A stretch of 64,000 nt of DNA, from contig NZ_SJPI01000003.1 of the NCBI RefSeq assembly GCF_007859865.1, forward strand, positions 124,001 through 188,000, read 5' to 3'. This document shows positions 32,779 to 46,198 of this stretch, in pieces. Position 1 is the first letter of the stretch, and each line of letters starts with the position of its first letter. The notes below the pieces were generated by a model. The model had not been told where the DNA came from. It made no database searches and was given only the letters and a program-made list of their open reading frames with translations. The position numbers and the translations under genes are program-made. This DNA is from Rubripirellula amarantea. GTDB lineage: Bacteria; Planctomycetota; Planctomycetia; Pirellulales; Pirellulaceae.

Positions 32779-33810
32779 TCACTCCGAGCCTTCGTTAGCT
32801 TCGGAGTTGAGCTCTAGCATTTCCGTGCTGTCGAGTTCCGGGCCGCCGCCTCGACCACCGCTGCCGGCGCAGGTGTAAAGTGCGTCGTTCCAAACGATCA
32901 CGCCGGTCCCATGTCGGCCAACTGCGAATTTAGAATCCGTCGACCACTGGTTCGTGACGGTATCGAGTCGTTGCACTTCGGCATGAGCTTCGCGCTGGAT
33001 CGTACTTTCGCCGCCCGCCACGAAAAAATCGCGACCGATGGCGAACGAGAAGCATCCGGCACGTGGTATCGGCAAATTGCTTTGCTCATCCAAAGTATTC
33101 CAAGTTCCTGTCTGAAGATCGTAAACATCAACTTCTGGGATCGTCAAATCAAAGACTTGCTTGGTGACACCGGACGACCTTCGACCGCCAGCAACGTAGA
33201 GCTTGTCTTCAATGAACGCGCACTGGAAATGATCGCGGGCACGCGGCGCATCGGCGAGCGATTCCCACGTTTGAGTCTTCAGATCGAGTCGATCGAGCCA
33301 AGTCACCCAACCGTCCCAGTGACCGTTCTGGATTCCGGACACAAGATACAGGTCATCACCGTGGACCGCCGCACCGGCTCCGCCTCGTCGTCGATCCTCA
33401 GGTATCTCTGCGCCCCATTTCCATTGGTCCAGCTTGGGATCATAGATCAACACTTTGTCCAAAGCATTCTCTTTTGGATAGTTCCCCGTCATGGCACCGA
33501 CAACCAAAATCTGATGGTTGTAAACCACGGGTTGGAAGTGGTGAATTTCGACCGGTGATCGAGCACCCTGAGTCCACGTTCGGGTTTTGGGATCATAGAT
33601 GTCAACCGGTTTCACTCCGCGCCCGCCGAGCAAGAAAAACCGATCGTCACATTCAATGAACGCTGCTTCATGTCGCGCTTGCGGATCACCGATGGTGTCC
33701 AACAATTCCCACTGACGCGTTTCTTGGGCTTCAACCCCATTGCCTGCGAACGTCGTGCAGATGGCAGCAACCATCACGCACCGCAACCATCGATTCACGA
33801 AATCTAACAT
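32779..33810 (-). CDS. secreted Kelch-repeat protein
   Basis: A 343-aa beta-propeller. A signal peptide (VMVAAICTTFAGNGVEAQ) precedes about five Kelch repeats with the paired Gly and spaced Trp/Tyr pattern (FFLLGGRGVKPVDIYDPKTRTW, LYVAGGRRSSG, FFVAGGESTIQ, DALYTCAGSGGRGGG). Such propellers bind sugars or proteins, or carry galactose-oxidase-like chemistry; no copper-site pattern is evident here. The ATG at 33810 is preferred over a TTG one codon earlier. It lies 90 bp downstream of the glycoside hydrolase gene on the same strand and may be co-transcribed with it. Confidence 0.85.
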   Translation of the reverse strand: MLDFVNRWLRCVMVAAICTTFAGNGVEAQETRQWELLDTIGDPQARHEAAFIECDDRFFLLGGRGVKPVDIYDPKTRTWTQGARSPVEIHHFQPVVYNHQILVVGAMTGNYPKENALDKVLIYDPKLDQWKWGAEIPEDRRRGGAGAAVHGDDLYLVSGIQNGHWDGWVTWLDRLDLKTQTWESLADAPRARDHFQCAFIEDKLYVAGGRRSSGVTKQVFDLTIPEVDVYDLQTGTWNTLDEQSNLPIPRAGCFSFAIGRDFFVAGGESTIQREAHAEVQRLDTVTNQWSTDSKFAVGRHGTGVIVWNDALYTCAGSGGRGGGPELDSTEMLELNSEANEGSE

Positions 33811-33900
33811 CAACGGAGTACTCCCAATACATAAAGCAAAGCAAACCCGAGCAGCGACAATCGCGGCCCAAGCAAACTTCCAAGAACCATCTATTGCAAA

Positions 33901-35814
33901 CTACTTGCGGACGACAATCAGCCAATCTTGGTCCTTGTCCGACGGTGGATCACCAAGTGAAACCGATTGGCCGCCATCAACGGATTTGACCGACGATGTC
34001 ACAAGATCGCCGCCCGACCTTGGATTGAACCAGTGAACTTGAAAGCTTCCTTTGACCTCTGATAAGTCAAGCGAAGTGCTTCCCCCTTGGGGCAAGTACA
34101 CGAGGTAAACTTCACCGTCTTTGGCGAAGCAGTACTTCGAATTATTGTGAGCCGAGTTGCCAATGCTGGCGTCCGCGTTTTTCATTTCCCAGAATGGAAT
34201 CTGGTTGTCGGAAAAAAACTGCAACGCGATTCGACAATAATCCCAAGACTGATCGCGACTGCGCCAGTCTTCGCAAACGAGGTCATTCTGCGGCAATTGG
34301 TACCCGAAGTAATATTCAACGCCCGCCCCGCCGGCCATCAAATTCCCCCACAACGTCGCCTTGCGAACGTCGTCGGTGGTATGCACTGACTTGCCGTCGT
34401 TCTTCGTACCTTCGTAGCCATCGTACCCAAGGTCCGGCGGGACACCGGTGTCAGCACCGCCTTGTTCGTCGTTGGCAACCACCCAAGGTCGGCCCGCGCG
34501 ATCCGACTCGGTGACCCAACGTAGGGTCCATTTGTGCGATTCTCGCCACGAGTTCTGGCAAGAGACACCGGACAAGCGGGACTTATCGCCAAGCAACTTC
34601 GTATAGACTTTTTCCTGGTCCTGAGGATACGTGTGCAGAACGACATGGTGTTGATAGGGATCAATTGAACGGATGTAGTCGATCATCGCGTTGACTTCGT
34701 CCGGCGTCTGGGTGTTCTCTTCGCCAACATTCCAGTTCAAAGCGAGAGCGTGACCGTAGCGGGCGATCAGTTCACGGCAATACAACATTCTTTCGGGACC
34801 AAGCTTTCCACCATCGAGTGAGGTGGGAACTTGAACTGACTTACGTTCAGGACCGTTTCGGTGATCGTCAATTTCCGTTTCTTGCAACTTGAAGTGCAAG
34901 TAGAGACCAAGAGAATTGCCGTGGTCGAAAACCATCCCCCATTGGTCAAGCTTGGAACAGTCGTAGTGCAATTTGTCATTCCGCTCAACAAACGGCCAGA
35001 CGTTGTCCCCGTCGCCTCCCGCGTTGTATGAAAGAAAAGAAAAGGCATTCAGTCCTTTGTCGGCCAAGTAATTCAATCCACCAATGAGTCCTTTGCCGTT
35101 CCCATCCTTCCACGTTGGATCGCCAGCCTTCCAATCTTGGACGTGAGCCTTCCAAGTCTTCAGCGGTACTTGCTTCGCTTTTCCTGCATGGGTGTTGTCG
35201 AAGTCGGTGTAACCCAACAATGTCTCTGGTGCATCCGGCCCTGCCTTTAAGAAGTACTCTTTCGTTCCAGCGAATTGGAGGTGGTGCTTGCCAACGTATT
35301 GAAGCCGCCCTTTCGAGCGAAAATCGCGACCTGACTTGTCAGTTTCCGTGACCTCAAAACTTCCGGCGATCCCATCGAAAGGCTTCAGAGCTTCGCCGCC
35401 ACCTTTGATCGCTGCCGCATCACCTTTTTTGAACGAAACTTTGTAGGTCCACTTGCCGGACTTATCCGGTGACAAGTGAGCACGCCATGTGGTTCCTTCG
35501 TCCGCACTTGTGTTGGCGGCGTTGCCGTCAGCGGCAAAATAGCCGGGCACGTTGTACTCTGGCATTCCGCTTTCATGTCGGAACGTGACATTCATCGCGA
35601 GGTCAGTGAACGGATTCGGCATGCTGTCCTTCTCGCGAGCAAACGGCCCGTCAATCGACAGGGTTACTTTGTGCCACTGTTTCAGTTCGCCAGATATTTC
35701 AGCCTCGCCGTTGCCATCGGTTGCCGCAAATGAAGTGGTTGCGACGCTAAGCCAAAACACTGAAAGTGCAAAACAGCGGCCGATCCACATTAAAGGAATG
35801 GTTCTAGTTTTCAT
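33901..35814 (-). CDS. secreted glycoside hydrolase-like protein (DUF5060/DUF4038 type)
   Basis: A 637-aa exported protein. A signal peptide (ALSVFWLSVATTSFAA) precedes an N-terminal beta-domain of DUF5060 type (VTLSIDGPFAREKD, WRAHLSPDKSGKWTYKVSF). A TIM-barrel part follows (GYTDFDNTHAGK, LNAFSFLSYNAGGDGDNVWPF, YGHALALNWNVGEENTQ with a likely catalytic Glu, PWVVANDEQGGAD). A C-terminal beta-domain closes it (YLVYLPQGGSTSLDLS, VHWFNPRSGG). Relatives act on plant or algal polysaccharide side chains, but the substrate is not readable. It lies next to the sugar-acid operon, separated from it by a tandem repeat, and may feed the same carbon route. Confidence 0.82.
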   Translation of the reverse strand: MKTRTIPLMWIGRCFALSVFWLSVATTSFAATDGNGEAEISGELKQWHKVTLSIDGPFAREKDSMPNPFTDLAMNVTFRHESGMPEYNVPGYFAADGNAANTSADEGTTWRAHLSPDKSGKWTYKVSFKKGDAAAIKGGGEALKPFDGIAGSFEVTETDKSGRDFRSKGRLQYVGKHHLQFAGTKEYFLKAGPDAPETLLGYTDFDNTHAGKAKQVPLKTWKAHVQDWKAGDPTWKDGNGKGLIGGLNYLADKGLNAFSFLSYNAGGDGDNVWPFVERNDKLHYDCSKLDQWGMVFDHGNSLGLYLHFKLQETEIDDHRNGPERKSVQVPTSLDGGKLGPERMLYCRELIARYGHALALNWNVGEENTQTPDEVNAMIDYIRSIDPYQHHVVLHTYPQDQEKVYTKLLGDKSRLSGVSCQNSWRESHKWTLRWVTESDRAGRPWVVANDEQGGADTGVPPDLGYDGYEGTKNDGKSVHTTDDVRKATLWGNLMAGGAGVEYYFGYQLPQNDLVCEDWRSRDQSWDYCRIALQFFSDNQIPFWEMKNADASIGNSAHNNSKYCFAKDGEVYLVYLPQGGSTSLDLSEVKGSFQVHWFNPRSGGDLVTSSVKSVDGGQSVSLGDPPSDKDQDWLIVVRK

Positions 35815-35866
35815 GGGACGAGTCTCTTTGGAAATCGTTGCTTGTTAAGTAGAGAAATGAAGCGAC

Positions 35867-35930
35867 CGAACGACGTTACCGAACGACGTTACCGAACGAC
35901 GTTACCGAGCGAAGTTACCGAGCGACGCCG
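35867..35930. repeat. 13-bp tandem repeat carrying the stop codon of the upstream gene
   Basis: Three identical copies of CGAACGACGTTAC (35867-35905) are followed by diverged copies CGAGCGAAGTTAC and CGAGCGACGCCG. On the minus strand, the last codons and the TAA stop of the tartrate-dehydrogenase-like gene lie in the diverged copies. The unit, with its in-register TAA, is repeated downstream of the stop. Confidence 0.85.
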
Positions 35931-37024
35931 GCGTTGCGATGAATTGCGTCCGTCACTGCATCCGAGATGGCTGACGTCGAGGTGTTTCCGCCCTGATCAG
36001 CGGTGCGTAGGTGGCCATCTTTCAGCAAACCGGCGACAGCGGATTCAATCGCCGCCCCAGCGCTGATCGCGTCAGCATCGTCATAGCGAGTGCCCAACCA
36101 ATCGAGCATCATGCTTGCTGATAGAATGGTTGCGATTGGATTGGCAACATTCTTTCCGGTTAACTGGGGTGCCGTTCCGTGCGAAGGTTGAAAAAGAGCG
36201 TGGTTGTCACCAATCTCGGCGGAGGGCGCCATGCCCAACCCACCAACGATCGCGGCACCCAAATCGGAAAGAATATCGCCGAACTGATTCTCCATCACCA
36301 AGACATCCCAATCGCTTGGCGAAGTGACCATGTATAAGCTCATCGCATCGACGTAGGTCGCGTCAGCCTCGATATCGGGATAGCGATGGGCGATGTCAAA
36401 GAATACTTTTCGGAAGAATGCAAAACTTCGAAAGACATTCGCTTTGTCCACGCAAGTCACCCGTCGTTTTCCATCGATGGGTCGTCCTTTGCGGCGTTGC
36501 GAAAGTTGAAACGCGTAGTCGACGACTCGTTCAGTCCCCTCTCGCGTGATCACGATAGTATCGGTGGCAACGTGGTCATTCAAAATGCAGCCACCGCCAA
36601 ACGACGCAAACAAACCTTCTAAGTTCTCTCGCAAGATCACCATGTCGATGCCTGCGCCGGCGGTGTTCAATGGCGACGGTACTCCCGGGTAAAGCTTTAC
36701 GGGACGAACTGCCGCATAAAGCCCTAACGCGCGACGCAACCCCATCATCATGTCGGGTTGGACTTCGGTTCCATCTGGCTTACGAACGTCGGGCAAGCCA
36801 ATCGCAGCTAACAAAACCGCGTCGGCATCAAGACAATCCTTCAACACTTCGTCCGGAATAGCCACTCCATGTTTTCGGTAGTGCTCGGCACCAGCCTCGT
36901 GGCGGTTGATCTTCAGCGAGATTCCGCAGCAAGACTGCACCGCATCCAAAACGGGCATGGTTGCGTCGAGACACTCGGGGCCGATGCCATCACCGGGAAG
37001 GGCAGCGATGTGATAAGTCTTCAC
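35915..37024 (-). CDS. tartrate/malate/isopropylmalate dehydrogenase family enzyme
   Basis: NAD-dependent beta-decarboxylating dehydrogenase of 369 aa. It has IAALPGDGIGPE at the start, YAAVRPVKLYPGVPSPL (typical of tartrate/D-malate dehydrogenases), RENLEGLF in the substrate loop, the metal site DAMSLYMV and the signature NQFGDILSDLGAAIVGGLG. It is not an obvious LeuB, as no other leucine gene is near. The GTG at 37024 overlaps the stop of the upstream ABM gene by 4 bp. It is the last gene of the sugar-acid operon and probably oxidises a hydroxy-dicarboxylate or tetronate. The exact substrate is inference. Confidence 0.87.
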   Translation of the reverse strand: MKTYHIAALPGDGIGPECLDATMPVLDAVQSCCGISLKINRHEAGAEHYRKHGVAIPDEVLKDCLDADAVLLAAIGLPDVRKPDGTEVQPDMMMGLRRALGLYAAVRPVKLYPGVPSPLNTAGAGIDMVILRENLEGLFASFGGGCILNDHVATDTIVITREGTERVVDYAFQLSQRRKGRPIDGKRRVTCVDKANVFRSFAFFRKVFFDIAHRYPDIEADATYVDAMSLYMVTSPSDWDVLVMENQFGDILSDLGAAIVGGLGMAPSAEIGDNHALFQPSHGTAPQLTGKNVANPIATILSASMMLDWLGTRYDDADAISAGAAIESAVAGLLKDGHLRTADQGGNTSTSAISDAVTDAIHRNAGVAR

Positions 37025-37329
37025 GAAGGGTTCTCCAAGAGATTCAAACGGTTGATTTGTTTCGCAGCAATCCATGGGGCAACGGCCCGGTCGTAGTCTG
37101 CAAAGTGAGGTGTGGTTTTGTGAGCGTCGAATGCGGCAGCGTCGGAATACGTTTCATACAAAAAGAATGTTGTCGGATCGTCTTCGCTCGTAAGCACGTC
37201 AAACTGACAGCAGTCCTCTTCAAGCCGCAGCGAGTCGCTGGCTTGTTGGAAAATTCGATCGCGAAAGTTGTCCACGAACTCCGGCTTGATTTGAAAGGTG
37301 ACCGCGATGGCAAAGGTGGGTTTCTTCAT
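37021..37329 (-). CDS. ABM-fold (YgiN-like) small protein
   Basis: A 102-aa dimeric alpha/beta-barrel protein of the antibiotic biosynthesis monooxygenase family: FAIAVTFQIKPEFVDNFRDRI, then CCQFDVLTSEDDPTTFFLYETY, then FDAHKTTPHFADY. The family includes quinol monooxygenases, but related small barrels also act as sugar epimerases or mutarotases. It overlaps the dehydrogenase gene by 4 bp and follows the aldolase gene by 28 bp. Inside a four-carbon acid operon that lacks a visible isomerase, an isomerase or mutarotase role is possible, but no catalytic residue proves it. Confidence 0.82.
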   Translation of the reverse strand: MKKPTFAIAVTFQIKPEFVDNFRDRIFQQASDSLRLEEDCCQFDVLTSEDDPTTFFLYETYSDAAAFDAHKTTPHFADYDRAVAPWIAAKQINRLNLLENPS

Positions 37330-37357
37330 CGTGCTCGCTATTGAGGTTGGTGGATGG

Positions 37358-37990
37358 CTAGGAAGGAAATCTGGCGTGCAAATCCGAAACTTGATCGACG
37401 TCCAAGAATCGCGTCGGCAATTCTCGCAACATCAGGTAAAGCTTTGCGGTCTCTTCAAGTTCTTCAACCGCGTAGACCGCACTGTCCAAGTCACGACCAC
37501 CGATCACGGGACCATGGTTGGCCAGCAGTGCGCCGCGCGCCGACTTGACGGATTGTTCAACGGCGTCGGCCAATTGCATATCACCAGGCGCAAAGTAAGG
37601 CACCAAGGGCAAGCGTCCCACTCGCATCACGAAGTAGGCAGTGATCGGCGGCAAAACGTTTTCGGGATCAAGATCACTCAAACAGCTCACCGCGACGGAC
37701 CACGTCGAATGCAAATGCACGATCGCTTGTTCCGATGAACGCGAGCGATAGTACGCACCGTGAAGGAACGCCTCTTTGGATGGTGGTTTGCCACTAATGA
37801 GATTGCCCGCGGAATCGAGTCGCGAAATCTCATCCGGATCCAGCCTTCCTAAACAACAATTGGTCGGTGTGATCAGCATTCCATCAGGCAATCGTTGGCT
37901 GATATTGCCAGAACTTCCTGAGGTGAGTCCACGATCAAAAAGCGATCGCCCATGCTCAGCCATCTTTTCTCGTAGCTCTCGTTCACTCAT
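37358..37990 (-). CDS. otnC: class II aldolase / 3-oxo-tetronate 4-phosphate decarboxylase-like (OtnC family)
   Basis: A 210-aa metal-dependent aldolase of the AraD/FucA family. Visible sites are GLTSGSSGNISQRL, KEAFLHGAYY, the metal-binding VHLHSTW (two His) and LLANHGPVIGG (third His). OtnC-type members decarboxylate 3-oxo-tetronate 4-phosphate to dihydroxyacetone phosphate, working with DUF1537 kinases. The kinase gene lies directly upstream here and the two overlap by 4 bp when the ATG at 37990 is used. This coupling strongly supports the OtnC role over fuculose- or ribulose-phosphate aldolase. Confidence 0.86.
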   Translation of the reverse strand: MSERELREKMAEHGRSLFDRGLTSGSSGNISQRLPDGMLITPTNCCLGRLDPDEISRLDSAGNLISGKPPSKEAFLHGAYYRSRSSEQAIVHLHSTWSVAVSCLSDLDPENVLPPITAYFVMRVGRLPLVPYFAPGDMQLADAVEQSVKSARGALLANHGPVIGGRDLDSAVYAVEELEETAKLYLMLRELPTRFLDVDQVSDLHARFPS

Positions 37991-39297
37991 GGCTCGCACT
38001 CCAAAGCATCAAAGAAGAAACGCGGACCACCGAAGTTGCCGGACTTCAACGCCAACGACAACGGATGCCCGCCCTGGGACAAGCCGATCGCTTCGACCCA
38101 AGGGACACCCGGCGCTATCTCGCGGCCGATTCGAACCGCATCGATACCAAGTGAATTAATGACTGCACCGGAGGTTTCGCCACCAGCAACTACGATCCGC
38201 CCTACGCCGCGTTCGACCAACCCTTTCGCGATCAATGCGAAGATCTGTTCCACACGATTGGCAGCTTCCTGATCGCCCCACCGTCGACGTGCCGCTTCGA
38301 CGACTTCGGTGTTTGCACCAGAACTGATCAAGATCAACTTTTCCGATTCGTCCGACTGGTGCCACTGTTGGTCACACCAATCCAGGGCTAAAGAGGCGGA
38401 ATCGTCGATGCTAGTTAACGAAAGGTCGACGTTCATGACGGGGAACGTTGCCGCAAACTCTGAAATCTGGTTTCGCGTCGCATCCGAACAACTGCCCGCC
38501 AAGACAACCGATCGAGTCTGTGAATTTGCTGCCTTGGCCGTGCTTTGCTCCGCAGCATCGCTCCCTAAGTTATCCGCACAATCTTCGTTCGTCTCAGCTT
38601 CGATTGAACGTCTGCTCTGATTCGGCAGCAACGCTTCAGCCCAATATCGCGCGATGGCCGATCCGCCCGTCAGCAACCGATGTTCGCGTGAAAATTCCGC
38701 TACACGTTTCAAGTCGTCCTCATTGATTGAGTCTGCAATCAGGTGACATCCGGACTCATCACGTTGAGGATTTCCTAGCGAAAGCCTTTCCACTTTGCGT
38801 TTCGACTGGGCCTGCAAGACGCGAACGAGATCGCTGTCTGTCATTGGGTTCAGGGGATGATTGCGCATCGAACTTTCATGCAATGGCACACCGCCCACAA
38901 ACAAGTGCCCGCAATAAACCGTGCGTCCGTTTTCCGGAAACGCCGGGCAAAAAATGACCTGTGAGGCGTCCAATTCGTCGGCCAATGCATCTGCTACCGG
39001 GCCGATGTTTCCAGCCGGAGTGGAATCGAACGTCGAACAGTACTTGAAGAAGTAGCGTTGCGTTTCGATCGATCGTAAAAACCGCAAAGCATCAAATGAC
39101 ATCGACACGGCTTCATCAGCGGGGATCGAGCGTGATTTCAGGGAAACCACCACCGCATCGGCATCGCCATATTTAGCGTTCGCATCCGGCGTCCCGAAAC
39201 ATTGTATCACTCGCAAACCGGCGCGAACGAGCATCGAGGACAAATCCGTTGCCCCGGTGTAGTCGTCAGCAATGCATCCCAGTAACGGACCACTCAT
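37987..39297 (-). CDS. otnK: four-carbon acid sugar kinase (DUF1537, OtnK family)
   Basis: A 436-aa kinase of the DUF1537 family, which phosphorylates tetronates or 3-oxo-tetronates at C4. The N-terminal substrate domain has GCIADDYTGATDLSS, then FFKYCSTFDSTPAGNIGPV and VIFCPAFPENGRTVY. The C-terminal nucleotide domain has the signature VVAGGETSGAVINSLG followed by GREIAPGVPWVEA. A stretch near residues 240-265 is Ala/Glu/Ser rich and may be a loop insertion. It overlaps both the upstream fusion gene and the downstream aldolase gene by 4 bp. Confidence 0.9.
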   Translation of the reverse strand: MSGPLLGCIADDYTGATDLSSMLVRAGLRVIQCFGTPDANAKYGDADAVVVSLKSRSIPADEAVSMSFDALRFLRSIETQRYFFKYCSTFDSTPAGNIGPVADALADELDASQVIFCPAFPENGRTVYCGHLFVGGVPLHESSMRNHPLNPMTDSDLVRVLQAQSKRKVERLSLGNPQRDESGCHLIADSINEDDLKRVAEFSREHRLLTGGSAIARYWAEALLPNQSRRSIEAETNEDCADNLGSDAAEQSTAKAANSQTRSVVLAGSCSDATRNQISEFAATFPVMNVDLSLTSIDDSASLALDWCDQQWHQSDESEKLILISSGANTEVVEAARRRWGDQEAANRVEQIFALIAKGLVERGVGRIVVAGGETSGAVINSLGIDAVRIGREIAPGVPWVEAIGLSQGGHPLSLALKSGNFGGPRFFFDALECEP

Positions 39298-41036
39298 GAT
39301 TTCACCTCGTGGCTATTAGCGAAACGTGAGGGCGAATACTCGATTGCGATTGCACGAACGGGGCAACCATCGCCACCTAGAATACGCAGCGGCAAAGCGA
39401 TGAACTCGACCACCGGCTGAGTCAACTCATTTAGATTCGCCAGTCCTTCGACAATCAAGACACCACCGCGAAAGAGAACTTGATGCACCTCAGTCAGCTC
39501 TTCGCGATTGTTCACGTCGGCAACCGAGGGTGGCTCTACGCCGATCATGGCAACTTGTTTTTCAACCAACCAATGAGCGAGCTCGATCGAAATTCGTGGT
39601 AGTGCGTCTCGATACTCTGGTGTTCCAAACTGTTCGTGCCAATCGGTCCGAAACAATAAGCGGTCTCCTGGGTAAACGTCCGCAAGAGCCTGGGTAACGT
39701 CATCGACCGAAATCGCGTGTCGCGGTTGCGTGCCGGCTAGGTTTACCACTCGAGCCGAACCACAGCACACCGCCAACGTTTGTTGATCAAGCGTGTTGCC
39801 ATCCGTTAGGAAATGCCGCGGGGCGTCCATGTGAGTGCCCGCGTGGGAATACAGCGAAAGCGTTGTCGCGTTCCAACCTTCGACTTCAAGTCGCTTCGCG
39901 GTTGTGATCTCCACGCCGCTCATGTCGTTTGAAACCACCAGACTCAGATCAACAACTCGGCGCTGTGAATGCTCGGAATTGCGGGTCGGATTAGTCAACG
40001 AAACGGTCTGACCAAGCCGAGCCGATTCGTAAGCAGCTTCGACGACTTGCAACGTTTTGGTGTACTCAGCCGGTCGCGTCTCGCAGACCGCATTCCCATT
40101 GATGACTTCCAAGAAGTGTTCCTGGCACAACCGCACACAGTCACCTGCAAATCCAATCTTCGAGTGCTTGTAATCGTGAACGTAAGCGGATTCGCCCAAT
40201 GGTTTGACCGTGATTTTACCTGCGACGTCCAACCACAAACTTCCTTTATCGCTTTCGACGGTCATTTCGCCAAACGTGTAGCGAGGTTCGTCGGCAAGCG
40301 ATTCGTGATAGCGACTGGCATCCCAAGTCGCTTTCCCGCCATTGGCAAAACGAAAATGCAAAACGGCGGCGTCTTCACCCGCGATAACCGGATTGAATTG
40401 CTGCAGTTCGGCATCGCACTGAGCAATCTCACCGGCGAGAAACCGAAACGTGTCGACGAAATGCACGCCCGTTTCATGAACCAACAAGCGCGGCATGCTG
40501 CGAAAGTACGGTTGACGGCCAAGGTAGGCATCGTCGCCCCAACCGTCCCCCATCCGCGTTCGCATATGGATCGAATGAAGTTGGTGACCGATCACTCCGC
40601 TATCAAGCAATCGCTTGATCTCACGATGCCACGGTTGAAATCGAAAATTCTCGTGAACCATGAAGGGGACGCCGCTCTTTTCGGCAACGTCAAGAATTTT
40701 TTTCGCCTCGGCAAAGTTTTCTGCCACGGGTTTTTGGCAGATCATCGGAAGTCCGCGATCGAGCACCCGTTCGACGATGGGAAGCCTCGCGGCAGGTCCA
40801 GTCGCGAGATCAACGAAGTCGATGTCGGTTCGTTGCAGCGCGGCGCTAACATCAGTGCATATATCTGCGATGCCGTATTTCTCGGCAGCCTGCTTTGCTT
40901 TGGCCTCGTCTAGGTCACAGATGCAAACAATCGTCGCACCATTGATCCGCTTCCAAGCGTCCAGGTGAAAATCACTGAAGTAGCCTGCGCCGATCAGCAA
41001 ACCGCGTTTTTCTGCGTGGCTTTTTGCGTTCGTCAT
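39294..41036 (-). CDS. fusion: Gfo/Idh/MocA oxidoreductase + cyclase-family hydrolase
   Basis: A 580-aa protein with two enzymes. Residues 1-345 form a Gfo/Idh/MocA NAD(P)-dependent oxidoreductase (LLIGAGYFSDFHLDAWK Rossmann loop, CQKPVAENFAEAKKIL, GVIGHQLHSIHMRTR, ETGVHFVDTFRFL). Residues 362-575 form a cyclase/kynurenine-formamidase-like metal hydrolase with the motif HAGTHMDAPRHF near residue 410 and GVLIVEGLANLNEL near the end. A role as sugar-acid or lactone dehydrogenase plus lactonase/amidase is a reasonable reading. It overlaps its neighbours by 4 bp on both sides. I know of no characterised protein with this order. Confidence 0.88.
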   Translation of the reverse strand: MTNAKSHAEKRGLLIGAGYFSDFHLDAWKRINGATIVCICDLDEAKAKQAAEKYGIADICTDVSAALQRTDIDFVDLATGPAARLPIVERVLDRGLPMICQKPVAENFAEAKKILDVAEKSGVPFMVHENFRFQPWHREIKRLLDSGVIGHQLHSIHMRTRMGDGWGDDAYLGRQPYFRSMPRLLVHETGVHFVDTFRFLAGEIAQCDAELQQFNPVIAGEDAAVLHFRFANGGKATWDASRYHESLADEPRYTFGEMTVESDKGSLWLDVAGKITVKPLGESAYVHDYKHSKIGFAGDCVRLCQEHFLEVINGNAVCETRPAEYTKTLQVVEAAYESARLGQTVSLTNPTRNSEHSQRRVVDLSLVVSNDMSGVEITTAKRLEVEGWNATTLSLYSHAGTHMDAPRHFLTDGNTLDQQTLAVCCGSARVVNLAGTQPRHAISVDDVTQALADVYPGDRLLFRTDWHEQFGTPEYRDALPRISIELAHWLVEKQVAMIGVEPPSVADVNNREELTEVHQVLFRGGVLIVEGLANLNELTQPVVEFIALPLRILGGDGCPVRAIAIEYSPSRFANSHEVKS

Positions 41037-42310
41037 TGGCTCGCTCCTTCATCCTGCAAATCAAGCGACTTCGTTGGATCAGCCAACATCCACAAACCAA
41101 TCGCCAAGAAATTTAAGCCGGCGGCAACGTAAAAGTAGGGGAGTGGTGACCCCGTCCACTGCAACAGGTAGGGGAACGCCAAACTGGTGATGAACGAGCC
41201 AATGTTGCCAGCCATATTCATCGTGCCCGAGATAACGCCCGCACGTCGACGACCAACATCAACGCAGGTACTCCACGAAGGAGGCAACGTCATGTCAGCT
41301 CCAAAAATGCACAAGCTAAACCAAACCGACGATGACAGCGGAGTCGTTGCGTGGGAACTTCCCACGATCCCGATCGCCGCTAACGTGAAACCTATCATCG
41401 CGGGAATACGCCGCGAGAGTACCCAACGACCTGAGTTGTAGATTCGGTCAACCAGCCATCCGGATGTCCAGCAACCCAACGCTCCGCACATGAGTGGCAA
41501 CGCCGAGAATAATGCTGCTTCCATTCCCGACAAACCGTAGCGTTCTTTCAATTGTGGAAAGAACCATGTCAAAGCAAAGAAGAACACGAAGTTAGAAGCA
41601 AAATACTGGCCACATAGCGCCCACATCGTCCGCGAGGTAAAGACCGACCTGCTTGAAGTTGACTCCGCTGATGATTCGCTTTTGATTTCAGACAATTGCT
41701 GACGGGTCTTGAGGATGTGCTCACGTTCTTGGTCGCTAAGCCAGGGTGCATCCTTCGGATCATCGCGAAAGAAAGCGAACCAAATCGCGGACCAGACAAA
41801 GCCGATCACCATCAAGACCACAAAAGTTGCTCGCCAACCCCAGGATAGGATCAGCCATGAAATCAGCGGCAAGGTAAGTGCGGCACCAATTCTTGAACCC
41901 GAGAAATTTATTGCCTGGACCCGTCCGCGTTCGTTCATCGGAATCCATGAGTAAACCGCACGCGACATTCCCGGGAACGCGCCAGCCTCGCCGGCACCAA
42001 ACAAGAACCTCACCGCCAACATCGAGGCGTAGGAGTTCGCCGCGGCGGTCAATCCGGTGCACGACGACCACGCCACCACAATCAACGCCAGCACCCGGCG
42101 AGGCCCCAGACGGTCCGCGAGCCATCCGCCCGGGGTCTGCATCAGGGCATAGCCCAGAGCAAACGCACTGAAGACCCAACCGATTTGAGTCGGAGATAGC
42201 TGAAGATCAGCAGCCACCGAATCCTTCGCTACCGAGATACAAACGCGATCGACGTACAAAAGCACCGACAGCAGGAAAGTCGTGAGGACGATGAACCATC
42301 GCATGGGCAT
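41033..42310 (-). CDS. MFS transporter, anion:cation symporter type
   Basis: A 425-aa transporter with twelve predicted membrane segments. It starts MPMRWFIVLTTFLLSVLLYVDR and has the conserved loop GGWLADRLGPRRVL between helices 2 and 3, as in hexuronate, galactonate and glucarate permeases. The frame extends to 42424, but the extra residues do not look like a transporter N-terminus, so the ATG at 42310 was chosen. It is the first gene of the sugar-acid operon and overlaps the fusion gene by 4 bp. The substrate is probably the sugar acid degraded by the operon. Confidence 0.9.
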   Translation of the reverse strand: MPMRWFIVLTTFLLSVLLYVDRVCISVAKDSVAADLQLSPTQIGWVFSAFALGYALMQTPGGWLADRLGPRRVLALIVVAWSSCTGLTAAANSYASMLAVRFLFGAGEAGAFPGMSRAVYSWIPMNERGRVQAINFSGSRIGAALTLPLISWLILSWGWRATFVVLMVIGFVWSAIWFAFFRDDPKDAPWLSDQEREHILKTRQQLSEIKSESSAESTSSRSVFTSRTMWALCGQYFASNFVFFFALTWFFPQLKERYGLSGMEAALFSALPLMCGALGCWTSGWLVDRIYNSGRWVLSRRIPAMIGFTLAAIGIVGSSHATTPLSSSVWFSLCIFGADMTLPPSWSTCVDVGRRRAGVISGTMNMAGNIGSFITSLAFPYLLQWTGSPLPYFYVAAGLNFLAIGLWMLADPTKSLDLQDEGASQ

Positions 42311-42423
42311 GATACGCGTCTCAGCAATAAGGGTAGGGGCGCCGTTCGTGCCGACGTCGATGAACCAGGCAATATGGTGGCCGACAGATCCATCAAGCAC
42401 AATTGCATAATCTCGAATGATCA

Positions 42424-42438
42424 TTCAAATATACTGAA
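42424..42438. promoter_or_regulatory. candidate LysR-type operator
   Basis: TTCAAATATACTGAA is a dyad (TTCA-N7-TGAA) containing the T-N11-A pattern typical of LysR-family sites. It lies 43 bp upstream of the LysR start and about 114 bp upstream of the chosen transporter start, in the divergent region between them. The pattern is seen directly; the binding is inferred. Confidence 0.45.
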
Positions 42439-42480
42439 CAATGAAGAACACCCATCGATCGGTAACCTGAGACTATCAAC

Positions 42481-43416
42481 GTGAAACCACGCCTGCTCGA
42501 CAACGCCGCGTCCCTGACCGTCCAACAGATCCGCACGTTTTGCGCGGTCTTTGAGCTTGGTGGTTACGCCGATGCGGCGCGTGAACTCAATCAAACTGGC
42601 ACCACGCTTTGGGAACAGATCAAAGTTCTGCAGCGAATCTATGGGACGGAGCTTTTCCAACGCAAAGGCCGCCGTATCGAACCGACCACCGCCGGCAAGT
42701 TATTGCATCAGCAACTCGGCCCCATACTCGAAGCGATCGAATCAAGTTTTCAGCTCGTCGCTGAGCAAACCCAGGCGGAGCCCACTGAGGTACGGATGGT
42801 CACCGGCGTGCGAATGATGCTTGAGGAACTCGGTTCACCCCTGGGCAAGTTCGCGAAACAGTTTCCCAATTCTCAGTTGAAGCTGATGACGGCTGATAAC
42901 GCGACCGCCCAGCGAATGGTCGCGGACGCAGTCGTGGACGTCGCACTACTGATTGAACCCCCTCGCGATGCTTTGCTCGACGGGTTATCAATCGAGCGGT
43001 TGTACCCAATCGAATACTTGGCCGTTTTCCCTCGGAGTCATCCGTTAGCGAAACGGTCAACGATTCGAGTGGCTGATCTGCTTCACGAACCGTTGATCAT
43101 CGGGAACGTGAACACGGTGGGAAGACGATTACTCGAGCAAGCGATTTTCCGCCTTGGATTAGAAACCCAACTTCAGCCAGCCGTTGAAACGGACAATAGC
43201 GCCGTGACGATGGCTTGCGTCCGGGCTGGGATGGGAGTCGGACTGATCGCCGGTCGTCACGATGGGAACTTAACCAAACCGTTGACCACACGAACGCTAA
43301 GCAAGGAACTTGGGCAAGTTCACATGGTTTCGATCACGCGAGCGGGTTGGGCTCCCACGCAAGCCATGCGGCGATTGCTCGAAAGCGTGAAAGAAGAACT
43401 AGCCGGTCCTTTGTAA
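42481..43416 (+). CDS. LysR-family transcriptional regulator
   Basis: A 311-aa regulator. The N-terminal winged helix-turn-helix has LTVQQIRTFCAVFELGGYADAARELN, then FQRKGRRIEPTTAGKLL. A type 2 periplasmic-binding-like effector domain follows (VADAVVDVALLIEPP, YLAVFPRSHPLAK, LIIGNVNTVGRRLLEQA, ACVRAGMGVGLIA). The start is a GTG at 42481. It is divergent from the sugar-acid operon, the usual arrangement for a LysR activator of the facing genes, and the effector is probably a sugar acid from that pathway. 16-bp repeats follow its stop. Confidence 0.93.
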   Translation: MKPRLLDNAASLTVQQIRTFCAVFELGGYADAARELNQTGTTLWEQIKVLQRIYGTELFQRKGRRIEPTTAGKLLHQQLGPILEAIESSFQLVAEQTQAEPTEVRMVTGVRMMLEELGSPLGKFAKQFPNSQLKLMTADNATAQRMVADAVVDVALLIEPPRDALLDGLSIERLYPIEYLAVFPRSHPLAKRSTIRVADLLHEPLIIGNVNTVGRRLLEQAIFRLGLETQLQPAVETDNSAVTMACVRAGMGVGLIAGRHDGNLTKPLTTRTLSKELGQVHMVSITRAGWAPTQAMRRLLESVKEELAGPL

Positions 43417-43623: not shown

Positions 43624-43720
43624 CGTAGTTTCACGATTGCTCTTTCGTCGCCGAAGGCAGATTTGATAACGAAGAGGTCAGCCATGGTTTTGGCCACTAC
43701 TTCGCGAAGGAATGCGACCC

Positions 43721-46198
43721 ATGAAATCGTTCGGCCTACGGCTCACAGCCGGAATTGTCACGATCCTGTTTGGTGCTTATGCCGCTGCATTAGCCCAAAG
43801 AGACAAACAAAATGACTCCCAAGCTTGGACAGCCCAAGCTCCGTCCCTCGGTGAACCTGCGGCGCCTATCGCTGGCATGAACGAGGATTCTTGGATCTCG
43901 CAGCCAGCGGAGAACCTCGAAAACGCCTCAAACTCGCTGGCGGATTTTGCCGCCAATGCATTTTCGCCGCCTAAGGGCGATGTCGTGCTGGTCCAGCACA
44001 CCGAAGACATGCCGGCGGCACCGGGCGGATTCGACATGCCTGGATTGCCAGCAAGTCTCGGAGAGCCCGCTGCGCAAACCATGGAAGAAACGCCTGCCGT
44101 GAATTGGGGAATTTCGGAAGACGCCACCGCTCCGGAAGTTCAGACCGAAAGCTCCCTATCGATGGGTTACGCATCGGAAAGCCCCGCCAACCAACTTGAT
44201 CAACTCGATGCAATCGAGGAACCGCAGCCGCTCACAACCACACCTGGCGAAGCAAATTCGCTTCCGACCCTGTCGCTCGCTGAGCCACCGCAAATGAACA
44301 CCTTCGCCGCGGCGCCGGCGCAAGAAGAGTTCAATGCCGAACCAGCACCTTCGCCGATGACCGCGAACCCAAGCAACGACCTGCGAAACCCCAACACCGC
44401 CATGAATGAACTGCGTTCCATGGCGCCGCCGGCGATGCAATCGTACGAGCCTGAATCGTCGTATCCAGAACCGATGCGTCCCGAATCGTTGGATCGTCAA
44501 TCGATGCAGCAACCGGCACCTCAATCACTCGCTCAACAACCGCAGCAGCAACCCCTGCAGCAGCAACCATACGCTCAGCAACAATTAGCCCAGCAAACAT
44601 TGGCACCACCGCCACAGAGTTTCGCTGGCCAAACCGACATGTACGGTCGCCCGCTTCAACAATTGCAACAACAACCTCCGCCACGCATGGCATCGTTGCC
44701 GACATCACCGCAAAGCGTGCCCGCAATCACAGCGGACACTTACGGTCAACGCGGATACGATAATTCCGGCATGTTGGACATCGATCCAAACACCGTCACG
44801 GGATCCCCCGGCGACCGTCGCCTCGAGGGAATCCAATCTCCAAGCGTGGTCATTCACAAACGCGCCCCCGCCGAAGTCAAAGTTGGGAAACCAGCCGCCT
44901 TTGTTATTCACGTTCAAAACGTTGGCAGCGCCGAAGCACTCGGCGTGACCGTGCATGACCGCGTGCCCGCTGGCATGCGACTAGTGGATGCTTCCCCCGA
45001 ACCTGTCATGCAAGGCGACTTGTTGATGTGGCAACTCGGTGCAATGTCGGCTGGCGAAGAACGTACCGTCACCATGCAACTGGTTCCTGAGGCCGAAGGT
45101 GAACTGGGCAGTGTCGCACGCGTGACATTCGAAGCCGCTGCGTCCGTGCGAACGGTTAGCACTCGTCCCGAATTGAAGATCGTACAACGAGCACCCGAGA
45201 AGGTTCTGATCGGCCAACAACTCGAAATTGAACTCGAAGTTTCCAACCCCGGCACGGGTGATGCGACTGGCGTTGCCTTACAAGAAGACGTACCCGAAGG
45301 ACTTGAACACCCGCGCGGCCGACAACTCGACAACATGCTCGGAACACTTGCCGCCGGTGAAGTACGCCAACAAGTGCTGCGATTGCGGGCCGCAAGCCCC
45401 GGTATGGTCCGAAATACGATTCGCTTGGTATCCGAAGACGGATTGACCGCCGAACACACCATCGATGTCGAAGTCGTCGCTCCTAACCTTGAAGTTGAAC
45501 TTCAAGGTCCATCGCGTCGCTTCCTTGAACACCAAACAACGTATCAATTGACCGTCGTCAACACGGGCACCGCCGACGCTACCAACGTCGAAATTTCGGT
45601 CGCGCTCGATCGTGGATTCACGTTCGTCAGCACGGACTACGAAGGCCAGTACGACCCTTCACGCCATGCGGTTTATTGGTCGCTCGCCTCGCTGCCCGCC
45701 GGTTCACCAGCGACCGTTCCGCTAACCTTGCTTCCCATCGAAGAGGGCAATCGGGCCATCACCGTCGACGCAAGAGCGGATCTGAACACGATGGCTCGAA
45801 ACGAGCACAAAGTCACCGTTGAAGGGCTCGCTGATCTTAGTTTCCAGATCATCAACCCCGGCGGACCAATCGAAATTGGGGCTGAATCATCCTACGAGAT
45901 CACGGTCAACAACAGCGGATCTAAAACAGACACCAACGTGCAGGTCCAAGTGCAGTTGCCTCCAGCATTGGAATTGATCAGTGCCGATGGCGACAGCGGA
46001 CAAGCGAGCACCGACGGTCGCGGGATCGTAGCCTTCCCACCAAGAAGCCAGCTCGCACCGGGAACCGAGATGAAGTACCGCTTGCGAGTCCGCGGCGTTG
46101 CTCCTGGAACCCACCTCGTGAAAGCCGTCGTGATGAGCGACAGCGCAGCGGTTCCGGTGACCAAGGAAGAAAGCACATTGGTCTATGCCGATCAGTGA
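43721..46198 (+). CDS. large exported DUF11-repeat protein with Gln-rich linker
   Basis: An 825-aa surface or secreted protein. A signal peptide (LRLTAGIVTILFGAYAAALAQ) is followed by about 330 residues of low-complexity Pro/Ala/Gln/Glu sequence, very Gln-rich at about residues 260-330. Four DUF11-like beta-sandwich repeats follow from about residue 375, each with the pattern of AEVKVGKPAAFVIHVQNVGSAEALGVTVHDRVP (split here as AEVKVGKPAAFVI and NVGSAEALGVTVHDRVP), NPGTGDATGVALQEDVP, NTGTADATNVEISVAL and NSGSKTDTNVQVQVQLP. DUF11 domains build cell-envelope proteins in planctomycetes. The ATG at 43721 is preferred over one three codons earlier because of the upstream AAGGA. Confidence 0.88.
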   Translation: MKSFGLRLTAGIVTILFGAYAAALAQRDKQNDSQAWTAQAPSLGEPAAPIAGMNEDSWISQPAENLENASNSLADFAANAFSPPKGDVVLVQHTEDMPAAPGGFDMPGLPASLGEPAAQTMEETPAVNWGISEDATAPEVQTESSLSMGYASESPANQLDQLDAIEEPQPLTTTPGEANSLPTLSLAEPPQMNTFAAAPAQEEFNAEPAPSPMTANPSNDLRNPNTAMNELRSMAPPAMQSYEPESSYPEPMRPESLDRQSMQQPAPQSLAQQPQQQPLQQQPYAQQQLAQQTLAPPPQSFAGQTDMYGRPLQQLQQQPPPRMASLPTSPQSVPAITADTYGQRGYDNSGMLDIDPNTVTGSPGDRRLEGIQSPSVVIHKRAPAEVKVGKPAAFVIHVQNVGSAEALGVTVHDRVPAGMRLVDASPEPVMQGDLLMWQLGAMSAGEERTVTMQLVPEAEGELGSVARVTFEAAASVRTVSTRPELKIVQRAPEKVLIGQQLEIELEVSNPGTGDATGVALQEDVPEGLEHPRGRQLDNMLGTLAAGEVRQQVLRLRAASPGMVRNTIRLVSEDGLTAEHTIDVEVVAPNLEVELQGPSRRFLEHQTTYQLTVVNTGTADATNVEISVALDRGFTFVSTDYEGQYDPSRHAVYWSLASLPAGSPATVPLTLLPIEEGNRAITVDARADLNTMARNEHKVTVEGLADLSFQIINPGGPIEIGAESSYEITVNNSGSKTDTNVQVQVQLPPALELISADGDSGQASTDGRGIVAFPPRSQLAPGTEMKYRLRVRGVAPGTHLVKAVVMSDSAAVPVTKEESTLVYADQ

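Follow-up and report, generated by a model that had tools for sequence, protein, structure and literature searches.

A conserved, patchily spread gene set in Rubripirellula amarantea most likely, as read from its sequence, feeds a sugar or sugar acid of four carbons into glycolysis at a common intermediate. It probably keeps the final steps of the textbook tetronate route, and the variation lies in the middle enzymes. More tentatively, an LsrG-like ABM protein might take over from OtnI as a 2-oxo-tetronate isomerase not homologous to it, partnered by a Tyr-less, non-decarboxylating tetronate dehydrogenase of the LeuB family (LDH); the two would then form an interchangeable module that is combined, in two distant groups of bacteria, with any of three lactonase families unrelated to one another.

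The genes lie in a stretch of 64,000 nucleotides, referred to here as the window (Table 1). Six of them run on the minus strand from 42424 to 35915, with a 4-bp overlap at four junctions and one 28-bp gap between the aldolase and ABM genes; the coordinates confirm the array facing a LysR gene that was reported in the preliminary description. The overlaps and the gap hold with the chosen starts, ATG for the aldolase and GTG for LDH. A GTG at 37999 is merely the first start in the aldolase frame and was not adopted, and the LDH frame has a longer version with an ATG at 37075. For the MFS gene, the ATG at 42310 is a likelier start than 42424 by Pfam match and sequence, which would leave about 170 bp free for a putative divergent promoter. 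Neither promoter-like nor terminator-like sites above chance were found. The grouping of the genes exceeds chance, as 14 further genomes from the same class carry the set, with some losses.

Table 1. Genes of the operon and its flanks in the window
Feature	Position	Strand	Remarks
LysR-type regulator, divergent	42481-43416	plus	PF03466 and PF00126
MFS transporter	41033-42424	minus	mechanical start; PF07690 210 bits
Gfo/Idh/MocA dehydrogenase-PF04199 cyclase fusion	39294-41036	minus	580 aa; PF01408 73 bits; PF04199 92 bits (cut-off 23)
DUF1537 kinase (OtnK type)	37987-39297	minus	NF043035 470 bits (cut-off 350)
Class II aldolase (OtnC, Aldolase_II type)	37358-37990	minus	ATG start; NF043034 310 bits (cut-off 250)
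ABM protein, LsrG-like	37021-37329	minus	PF03992 65 bits
LeuB/tartrate-DH-family dehydrogenase (LDH)	35915-37024	minus	GTG start; PF00180 303 bits
DUF5060/Collagen_bind_2 hydrolase, putatively secreted	33901-35814	minus	Pfam
Kelch-repeat protein	32779-33813	minus	Pfam

In the proposed route, the MFS protein would import the substrate, which the putatively secreted hydrolase may free from a glycan. The Gfo/Idh domain would convert a four-carbon aldose, or a close relative, to a lactone, which the fused cyclase domain would hydrolyse to a tetronate. LDH would oxidise the tetronate to an oxo-tetronate without completed decarboxylation, and ABM would turn the 2-oxo into the 3-oxo form, a job done elsewhere by OtnI. 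OtnK would then phosphorylate C4 and OtnC would decarboxylate the product to dihydroxyacetone phosphate (DHAP), the families of both being assigned and their activities predicted. The complete chain, from sugar through lactone, tetronate, oxo-tetronate and ABM isomerase to DHAP, is a plausible but tentative reading.

Enzymes and flanking genes

The kinase and the aldolase pass the curated NCBIfam models for OtnK and OtnC, which upholds the identities towards which the preliminary description had pointed, and the pathway probably ends in the OtnK and OtnC steps. The kinase fails the models for OiaK (120 bits; cut-off 700) and for the D-threonate kinase DtnK (121 bits; cut-off 450). In a Pfam scan the aldolase matched only PF00596 (Aldolase_II) and not the F_bP_aldolase type of OtnC.

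The fusion protein comprises a Gfo/Idh/MocA domain (about residues 1-352) and a PF04199 cyclase domain (about residues 353-580). An alignment of nine sequences, of which the window's is one, has the two fused throughout, and four loci (L051-L054) encode them as separate genes. The cyclase, with its HxGTHxDxPxH-like motif, carries SHxGTHxDAPxHF, which we take to be metal-binding and which recurs in nine aligned rows, with Ala for Thr in one. Loci from the family of Ruegeria sp. XHP0148 have an MBL-fold or SMP-30 protein in the cyclase slot, so that three lactonase-type families share one slot (PF04199, MBL, and, in L196, L216 and L246, SMP-30). This swapping of unrelated families suggests that the cyclase is probably a lactonase, and it supports the earlier proposal that a cyclase-type hydrolase opens a lactone. 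The models and structures closest to it are those of kynurenine formamidases, which counts against a lactonase; it fails the arylformamidase equivalog TIGR03035 (88 bits; cut-off 223). The MBL proteins in the slot score far below lactonase cut-offs, and none of the three families was found in five of the 10 Ruegeria-family loci of a second type, described below. Locus L049 has no cyclase and locus L055 no Gfo/Idh match.

By its PF00180 domain LDH belongs to the isocitrate/isopropylmalate dehydrogenase superfamily. It scores 283 bits against the tartrate dehydrogenase (TtuC) equivalog TIGR02089, under the cut-off of 470. It has Phe (ENLEGLF) where the family has its catalytic Tyr; this Phe aligns with the Tyr of 3flk and of three IPMDHs and is invariant in 13 of 13 operon LDH enzymes. 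Also invariant in the 13-row alignment are R97, R107, R132, K194, D226, D250 and D254, of which we take the Lys and Asp to be catalytic and the Arg to be substrate residues. The family Tyr presumably serves the decarboxylation/protonation step; an enzyme lacking it probably does not complete decarboxylation, and it is fairly likely that LDH yields an oxo-tetronate. The preliminary description had both the Gfo/Idh and the LeuB-like enzyme replacing the usual dehydrogenases; this stands for the LeuB-like enzyme, which would take the place of LtnD/DenD, whereas the Gfo/Idh enzyme more likely acts upstream and forms the lactone.

The ABM protein, to which no role had been assigned, is the strongest contender for the oxo-tetronate isomerase that the operon lacks, and it could act as an isomerase with a probability a little short of even. 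Its best single-sequence match in the PDB is LsrG (2gff; E 6.5e-11), an AI-2 phosphate isomerase (2gff, 3qmq) that belongs by sequence to the ABM family and with which the two His residues in the KTTPH region line up. The window ABM falls far under the LsrG equivalog cut-off, however (44.6 of 135 bits), and with a 21-row ABM profile the LsrG entries rank only 5th and 6th, uncharacterised ABM structures ranking higher.

The nearest NCBIfam group of the MFS protein is the D-galactonate transporter subfamily TIGR00893 (278 bits, under the cut-off of 395). The LysR protein probably regulates the adjoining operon; of 14 operon neighbourhoods fetched from other genomes, eight contain relatives (L053, L054, L055, L057, L058, L060, L061, L063). 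The hydrolase gene, missed in the preliminary description, lies 100 bp downstream of the operon in the same direction and is a probable extension of the unit. Relatives adjoin the operon or the LDH gene in nine of the 15 operon genomes; they are 52-65% identical and stand beside the operon, LDH or, in L043, OtnK-OtnC. To judge from N-termini only, the hydrolase is probably secreted. A glycan hydrolase and free aldotetroses are a poor fit to each other, which counts against the proposed route. The Kelch-repeat gene is possibly the last of the unit, and proteins resembling it are also encoded downstream in loci L051 and L053.

Distribution of the gene set

Relatives of the operon were sought via OtnK among 397 genomes of the class, and the unit, with some losses, was found in 15 of them, the window's included. 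OtnI exceeds its cut-off of 325 bits in none of these 15 (best 145 bits; 110 bits in the window's genome, on another contig), so the absence of OtnI described earlier for the operon extends, at this cut-off, to all of these genomes. ABM scores above 100 bits in nine of the 15 and adjoins LDH in every one, even in two where LDH sits apart from the operon.

The Ruegeria family shares LDH, the Gfo/Idh enzyme and ABM with the window operon, often with OtnK and OtnC alongside. ABM accompanies LDH and Gfo/Idh in 19 of 20 fetched loci; in the second type of locus, with LDH beside OtnK, it is present in eight of 10. OtnI was found in none of these 30 loci, and neither an ABM nor an LDH match in any of 18 fetched OtnK-OtnI loci. 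In two loci a neighbour of this gene set passes the model for D-erythronate dehydrogenase, DenD (cut-off 325): L217 (349 bits) and L196 (450 bits), where OtnI is also present. OtnK goes with LDH: of the LDH genomes ranked best, 31 of 34 have it, compared with 55 of 214 others (Fisher p 2e-13). Among the 34, OtnK is local only in 14, in a separate OtnK-OtnI pair only in 16, both in one and neither in three (Fisher 1.3e-5); in the sole genome with both, the local kinase has an in-frame stop. Together with the nesting of OtnK and OtnC from the LDH cluster of G913 among those from OtnI clusters, this split suggests that both routes probably share a kinase substrate.

The absence of OtnI in the Ruegeria family is at locus level only, except in G863, G766 and G896. 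An OtnI/Hyi-like protein occurs somewhere in 30 of the 34 genomes (E 1e-50; two above cut-off) and in all 10 second-type genomes (E 1e-40), where one, in G752, is above cut-off; of the loci fetched beyond a contig end, that of G752 (L241) is the one without ABM (n = 1), which is in keeping with ABM in the place of OtnI. Both G756 and G686 have OtnI above cut-off; in G756 ABM yet adjoins LDH, and in G686 an ABM lies elsewhere in the genome. The two Ruegeria-family loci scanned (L203, L201) contain TctA/TctC and DctM/DctP transporters, and other loci have similar genes, which suggests that the imported substrate is an acid.

Alternative readings and known routes

Six of the 15 operon genomes have neither ABM above 45 bits nor OtnI above cut-off, so ABM is not always needed and LDH may produce 3-oxo-tetronate directly. 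Their LDHs fall into more than one group on the tree (4 label changes, at least 2 forced) and retain the Phe motif. These observations favour a version of the same pathway, somewhat unlikely overall, in which LDH oxidises the C3 hydroxyl without any isomerase and ABM has an accessory role as a tautomerase or takes the lactone as its substrate. The Tyr-to-Phe change suits it, as oxidation would proceed without completed decarboxylation, and there is a precedent in the PdxA-type oxidation of 4-phospho-D-threonate at C3. It is opposed by the constant adjacency of ABM to LDH in ABM-bearing operon genomes, by ABM in 27 of the 30 Ruegeria-family loci of two types, and by L070, where a Phe-type LDH adjoins an OtnI-like gene (289 bits; cut-off 325). 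In an aldarate route, oxidation and opening of a penturonate would give a pentarate, from which LDH would make 3-oxo-tetronate by oxidising C3 with loss of CO2; with no Tyr to protonate the enol, its ketonisation would fall to ABM. This route is distinctly improbable. It would account for OtnK and OtnC without OtnI, and both the oxidation and decarboxylation of diacids by the LDH family and the acid transporters of the Ruegeria-family loci agree with it; however, DenD in L196 and L217 suits tetronates better, Phe for Tyr speaks against decarboxylation, and penturonates are rare in nature. An ordinary OtnI-dependent threonate or erythronate operon, with which the OtnK and OtnC equivalogs agree, is very improbable, since OtnI is above cut-off in none of the 15 genomes, the window's already contradicting it, and the six genes include a PF00180 dehydrogenase, ABM and a cyclase instead of an LtnD- or DenD-type gene.

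A branched-sugar route, with D-apiose or apionate as substrate and LDH and ABM standing in for apionate oxidoisomerase, is improbable. The hydrolase barely clears the Pfam Apiosidase model (26.6 bits; cut-off 26.5), and the enzyme families of the D-apiose route parallel the Gfo/Idh enzyme, lactonase and DUF1537 kinase. As outlined in PMC11747546, that route comprises D-apiose dehydrogenase, apionolactonase, apionate oxidoisomerase, OiaK and OiaC, and the logic of dehydrogenase, lactonase, oxidation, DUF1537 kinase and decarboxylase is common to both. It differs in that the window kinase is of the OtnK and not the OiaK type and the decarboxylase is an Aldolase_II-type OtnC above cut-off; OtnK and OtnC are apparently common to OtnI clusters, and DenD occurs in two related clusters. 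OiaC is a RuBisCO-like protein.

The D-threonate route consists of DtnK and PdxA2. It shares a DUF1537 kinase with the window operon, and in either case the dehydrogenase could conceivably act at the position beta to the carboxylate, whereas the window kinase fails the DtnK model, no PdxA-type gene is among the six and OtnC is present. The D-erythronate branch uses the dehydrogenase DenD, a name also used by NCBIfam. The L-threonate branch proceeds through LtnD, OtnI, OtnK and OtnC, as summarised in PMC12540250. The LtnD/DenD-OtnI route shares with the window operon the OtnK-type kinase, the Aldolase_II-type OtnC and the expected DHAP end; the window operon lacks LtnD/DenD and OtnI and has a LeuB-family dehydrogenase, ABM, Gfo/Idh and cyclase. 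A three-step L-threonate bypass (LtnD, 2-OtnK, 2-OtnC; Guo et al. 2024, cited in PMC12540250) likewise omits OtnI, but as summarised there it has LtnD and an F_bP_aldolase-type OtnC where the window operon has a PF00180 dehydrogenase and an Aldolase_II OtnC. The earlier suggestion of an undescribed variant is thus kept in part: this combination of enzymes was not found described in the literature searched, judged by titles and the beginnings of abstracts, and a route without OtnI is by itself no novelty.

Significance

If the preferred reading, with ABM in the place of OtnI, is true, a further route would lead from four-carbon sugars and their lactones into central metabolism, and one branch of the large, mostly uncharacterised ABM family would gain a function. 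A LeuB-type enzyme would have been recruited outside leucine and TCA chemistry, and a one-residue change in LDH would clearly predict oxidation without decarboxylation. Genomes annotated without a complete threonate/erythronate route for want of OtnI may then possess one.

Operon layout and protein families

The preliminary description had placed six minus-strand genes in one operon, encoding an MFS transporter, a Gfo/Idh-cyclase fusion protein, a DUF1537 kinase (here OtnK), a class II aldolase (here OtnC), an ABM protein (here ABM) and a LeuB-like, tartrate dehydrogenase-like enzyme (here LDH). The window sequence bears out these genes and their order. With the aldolase and LDH starts listed in the table, four junctions overlap by 4 bp and one leaves a gap of 28 bp, as described, and a LysR gene stands divergent to the operon. 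The DUF1537 N-terminal domain has a single match in the window's 6.9-Mb genome. A DUF1559 gene found in a relative fits the planctomycete origin that the preliminary description assumed.

Coordinates of features in the window and in fetched loci (L-numbers)
Feature	Sequence	Coordinates	Description
Operon	window	42424-35915	six genes, minus strand
MFS frame	window	42424	listed start; true start probably 42310
Aldolase start	window	37990	ATG
LDH start	window	37024	GTG
Tandem array	window	35865-35927	13-bp unit ACCGAACGACGTT, 4.8 copies, 94% matches; spans LDH gene end and gap before hydrolase gene
Long frame	window	43712-46198	plus strand, 828 aa, downstream of LysR gene
Beta-hydroxyacid dehydrogenase	L246	9209-10105	adjoins Phe-type LDH
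Beta-hydroxyacid dehydrogenase	L068	8888-9793	adjoins Phe-type LDH
Enolase-superfamily gene	L196	964-2067	near cluster
Enolase-superfamily gene	L243	8458-9600	near cluster
Gene row	L082	887-4919	Phe-type LDH, cyclase (52% against that of the window), divergent DUF1537 kinase, MFS

The kinase matches the 3-oxo-tetronate kinase model NF043035 at 470 bits (cut-off 350); its best PDB match is 5dmh and that of OtnC is 6vop. ABM belongs to PF03992, and LsrG is both its closest NCBIfam model and, as 2gff, its best PDB match. LDH belongs to PF00180 and scores below every listed NCBIfam cut-off. The fusion protein joins Gfo/Idh to a PF04199 cyclase half, for which kynurenine formamidase (4co9) is the best PDB match, and its predicted structure, with a mean pLDDT of 50.9 from an alignment of three rows, was set aside. 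For the Gfo/Idh half, the best PDB match is 5uhw (164 bits), which may be an enzyme of the D-apiose route, and the next Gfo/Idh entry is 1zh8 (72 bits). 5UI9, identical in sequence to 5uhw, is described as an Agrobacterium radiobacter oxidoreductase (PMC7535918). A literature search covering titles and abstract openings, with most subscription papers outside it, found no description of the gene set among the matches listed.

Recurrence in the class and in the Ruegeria family

OtnK scores above its cut-off in 20 of 397 genomes of the window's class; among 294 genomes sampled from the phylum, 7 have it. The neighbourhoods of the class hits were fetched and then searched with the window proteins. 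Close relatives of Gfo/Idh, cyclase and/or LDH adjoin OtnK in 15 genomes, the window's included, a count that would miss units without a nearby OtnK since the search was entered through this kinase. The shared gene order is MFS, Gfo/Idh, cyclase, OtnK, OtnC, (ABM), LDH, with some losses: there is no cyclase or MFS match in L049, no Gfo/Idh in L055 and no MFS in L047, and LDH is located elsewhere in L047 and L061. Gfo/Idh and cyclase are fused in nine aligned sequences including the window's and are separate genes in L051-L054. Five other OtnK genomes were kept out of the 15, namely those with OtnK and OtnC only (L041, L042), with OtnK alone (L050 and the 5-kb contig L062), and with OtnK, OtnC and LysR plus distant relatives of LDH (37%) and Gfo/Idh (35%) 5 to 9 kb off (L046). 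Three loci with OtnK below cut-off (L064, L065, L066) were used for BLAST comparison only and left out of the counts.

Of the 15 genomes, 9 have a DUF5060 hydrolase, probably secreted, near the operon or LDH; it belongs to one conserved family (52-65% identity to the window's), for which a profile search against the PDB gave no match at E 0.01. Two other genes separate it from the unit in L057, L058 and L060, and a relative adjoins OtnK-OtnC in L043, outside the window's class. The gene row on the Sedimentisphaerales contig L082 is possibly a parallel pathway using another kinase.

The ENLEGLF motif of LDH has Phe at a position occupied by Tyr in tartrate dehydrogenase 3flk and in the isopropylmalate dehydrogenases compared. 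Tyr at this position serves protonation after decarboxylation; the literature search found no paper on this role. Phe is invariant across 13 operon enzymes and is also found in the nearest outside group, from Pelagibius (L068), Pseudolabrys (L070) and Ruegeria sp. XHP0148 (L071). Tyr-bearing L067, L069 and L072 fall outside both Phe groups, with split support of 92/90 and some long branches. Among 80 sequences kept from at least 585 LDH relatives, which include general LeuB patterns, the residue is Tyr in 73, Phe in 6 and Leu in 1, and one of the six (L136) looks like the effect of an alignment gap.

In the L071 cluster, OtnC, OtnK, an MBL-fold protein and ABM share one strand, and the opposite strand carries LDH, Gfo/Idh and GntR. 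An LDH match at E 1e-90 occurs in 60 of 248 genomes of the same taxonomic family (the Ruegeria family), and the 34 best-ranked of these 60 were followed. A first locus type, sampled as 20 loci from 19 of the 34, contains Gfo/Idh in every case and ABM and the MBL protein in 19 loci each, an SMP-30 protein standing in place of MBL in L216. Two loci were scanned, and their transporters are TctA/TctC in L203 and DctM/DctP in L201; similar genes occur in others. In the second type (L238-L247, the last ending inside OtnK; L217 also belongs here), LDH adjoins OtnK and ABM is present in 8 of the 10 loci; MBL occurs in four and SMP-30 in one, and none of MBL, SMP-30 and PF04199 was seen in the other five. 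All 30 LDHs of the two types carry Phe, and OtnI, the 2-oxo-tetronate isomerase of the described route, is absent within all 30 loci.

Ten further LDH loci (L248-L257; seven Phe, three Tyr) lack any match to OtnC, ABM, Gfo/Idh or a lactonase; L248 has a distant kinase match and a reductase match, and L249 and L252 have GntR matches. The Phe-type enzymes of L250-L252 and L254-L257, with no OtnK, ABM, lactonase or other cluster gene nearby except the GntR match in L252, possibly have a different role. The beta-hydroxyacid dehydrogenases of L246 and L068 are 67% identical to each other and score below the tartronate-semialdehyde reductase and L-threonate dehydrogenase cut-offs. For the enolase-superfamily genes, the nearest model is L-talarate/galactarate dehydratase, with a score well below its cut-off.

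The proposed shared intermediate and isomerisation step

In the Ruegeria family, OtnK is above cut-off in 31 of the 34 LDH genomes versus 55 of 214 others, of which 26 have a weaker LDH match; the LDH and OtnK counts apparently come from the same genome draw, and Fisher p-values overstate the association because related genomes are not independent. OtnK lies only in the LDH cluster in 14 of the 34, only in a separate OtnK-OtnI pair in 16 ("OtnI" here meaning OtnI/Hyi-like hits, mostly below cut-off), in both in one (G818, whose local kinase has an in-frame stop) and in neither in three, where G910 has OtnK away from both and G819 and G809 are without it. No ABM or LDH match was found in 18 fetched OtnK-OtnI loci, 17 of which contain OtnC; the only one tested (L223) has an L-threonate dehydrogenase above cut-off. 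In L210 (genome G913), OtnK and OtnC near LDH nest among those of OtnI clusters. A hexuronate route yielding DHAP and glyoxylate was dropped because OtnK and OtnC appear to be used by OtnI clusters as well. The intermediate common to both routes would be an oxo-tetronate, for which the best evidence is a D-erythronate dehydrogenase above cut-off in two loci. In L217 it adjoins MBL and LDH. In L196 its neighbour is OtnI, and SMP-30, OtnK, OtnC and Gfo/Idh are present too; the genome of L196 carries its LDH on a separate fetched stretch (L068).

The absence of OtnI claimed for the operon extends to all 15 operon genomes, where no protein exceeds 325 bits (best 145; E. coli control positive). ABM may take the place of OtnI as the isomerase, a hypothesis with a real competitor in direct oxidation at C3 by LDH, which would need no isomerase. 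ABM exceeds 100 bits in 9 of the 15 genomes; the other six (G657, G363, G316, G328, G554 and G569) have either no match or one of no more than 44 bits. The six LDHs from these ABM-less genomes do not form one group in the LDH tree, which has four label changes, at least two of them forced by well-supported branches. In G635 and G352, whose LDH is separate from the operon, ABM still adjoins LDH. ABM was first rated optional because BLAST gave no match in several operons of the window's class, and its role was rated higher again on account of the Ruegeria-family loci.

At E 1e-50, OtnI/Hyi-like proteins occur in 30 of the 34 LDH genomes (two above cut-off), and at E 1e-40 in 10 of 10 second-type genomes (one above cut-off); some may be hydroxypyruvate isomerases. 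A local OtnK in a genome free of OtnI/Hyi-like proteins at E 1e-50 is seen only in G863, G766 and G896. G756 has OtnI above cut-off, yet ABM adjoins its LDH. Pointing the opposite way, G752, the only second-type genome with OtnI above cut-off, has a locus without ABM (L241). In L070, a Phe-type LDH is paired with an OtnI-like gene, and ABM was not found in that incomplete assembly. Isomerisation by ABM is therefore kept hypothetical.

By family and context, an end of the route through OtnK and OtnC to DHAP is well supported, and swaps between non-homologous families support a putative lactonase role. We infer the chemistry of LDH and ABM and the starting sugar. The operon is probably a variant of a route type already described.
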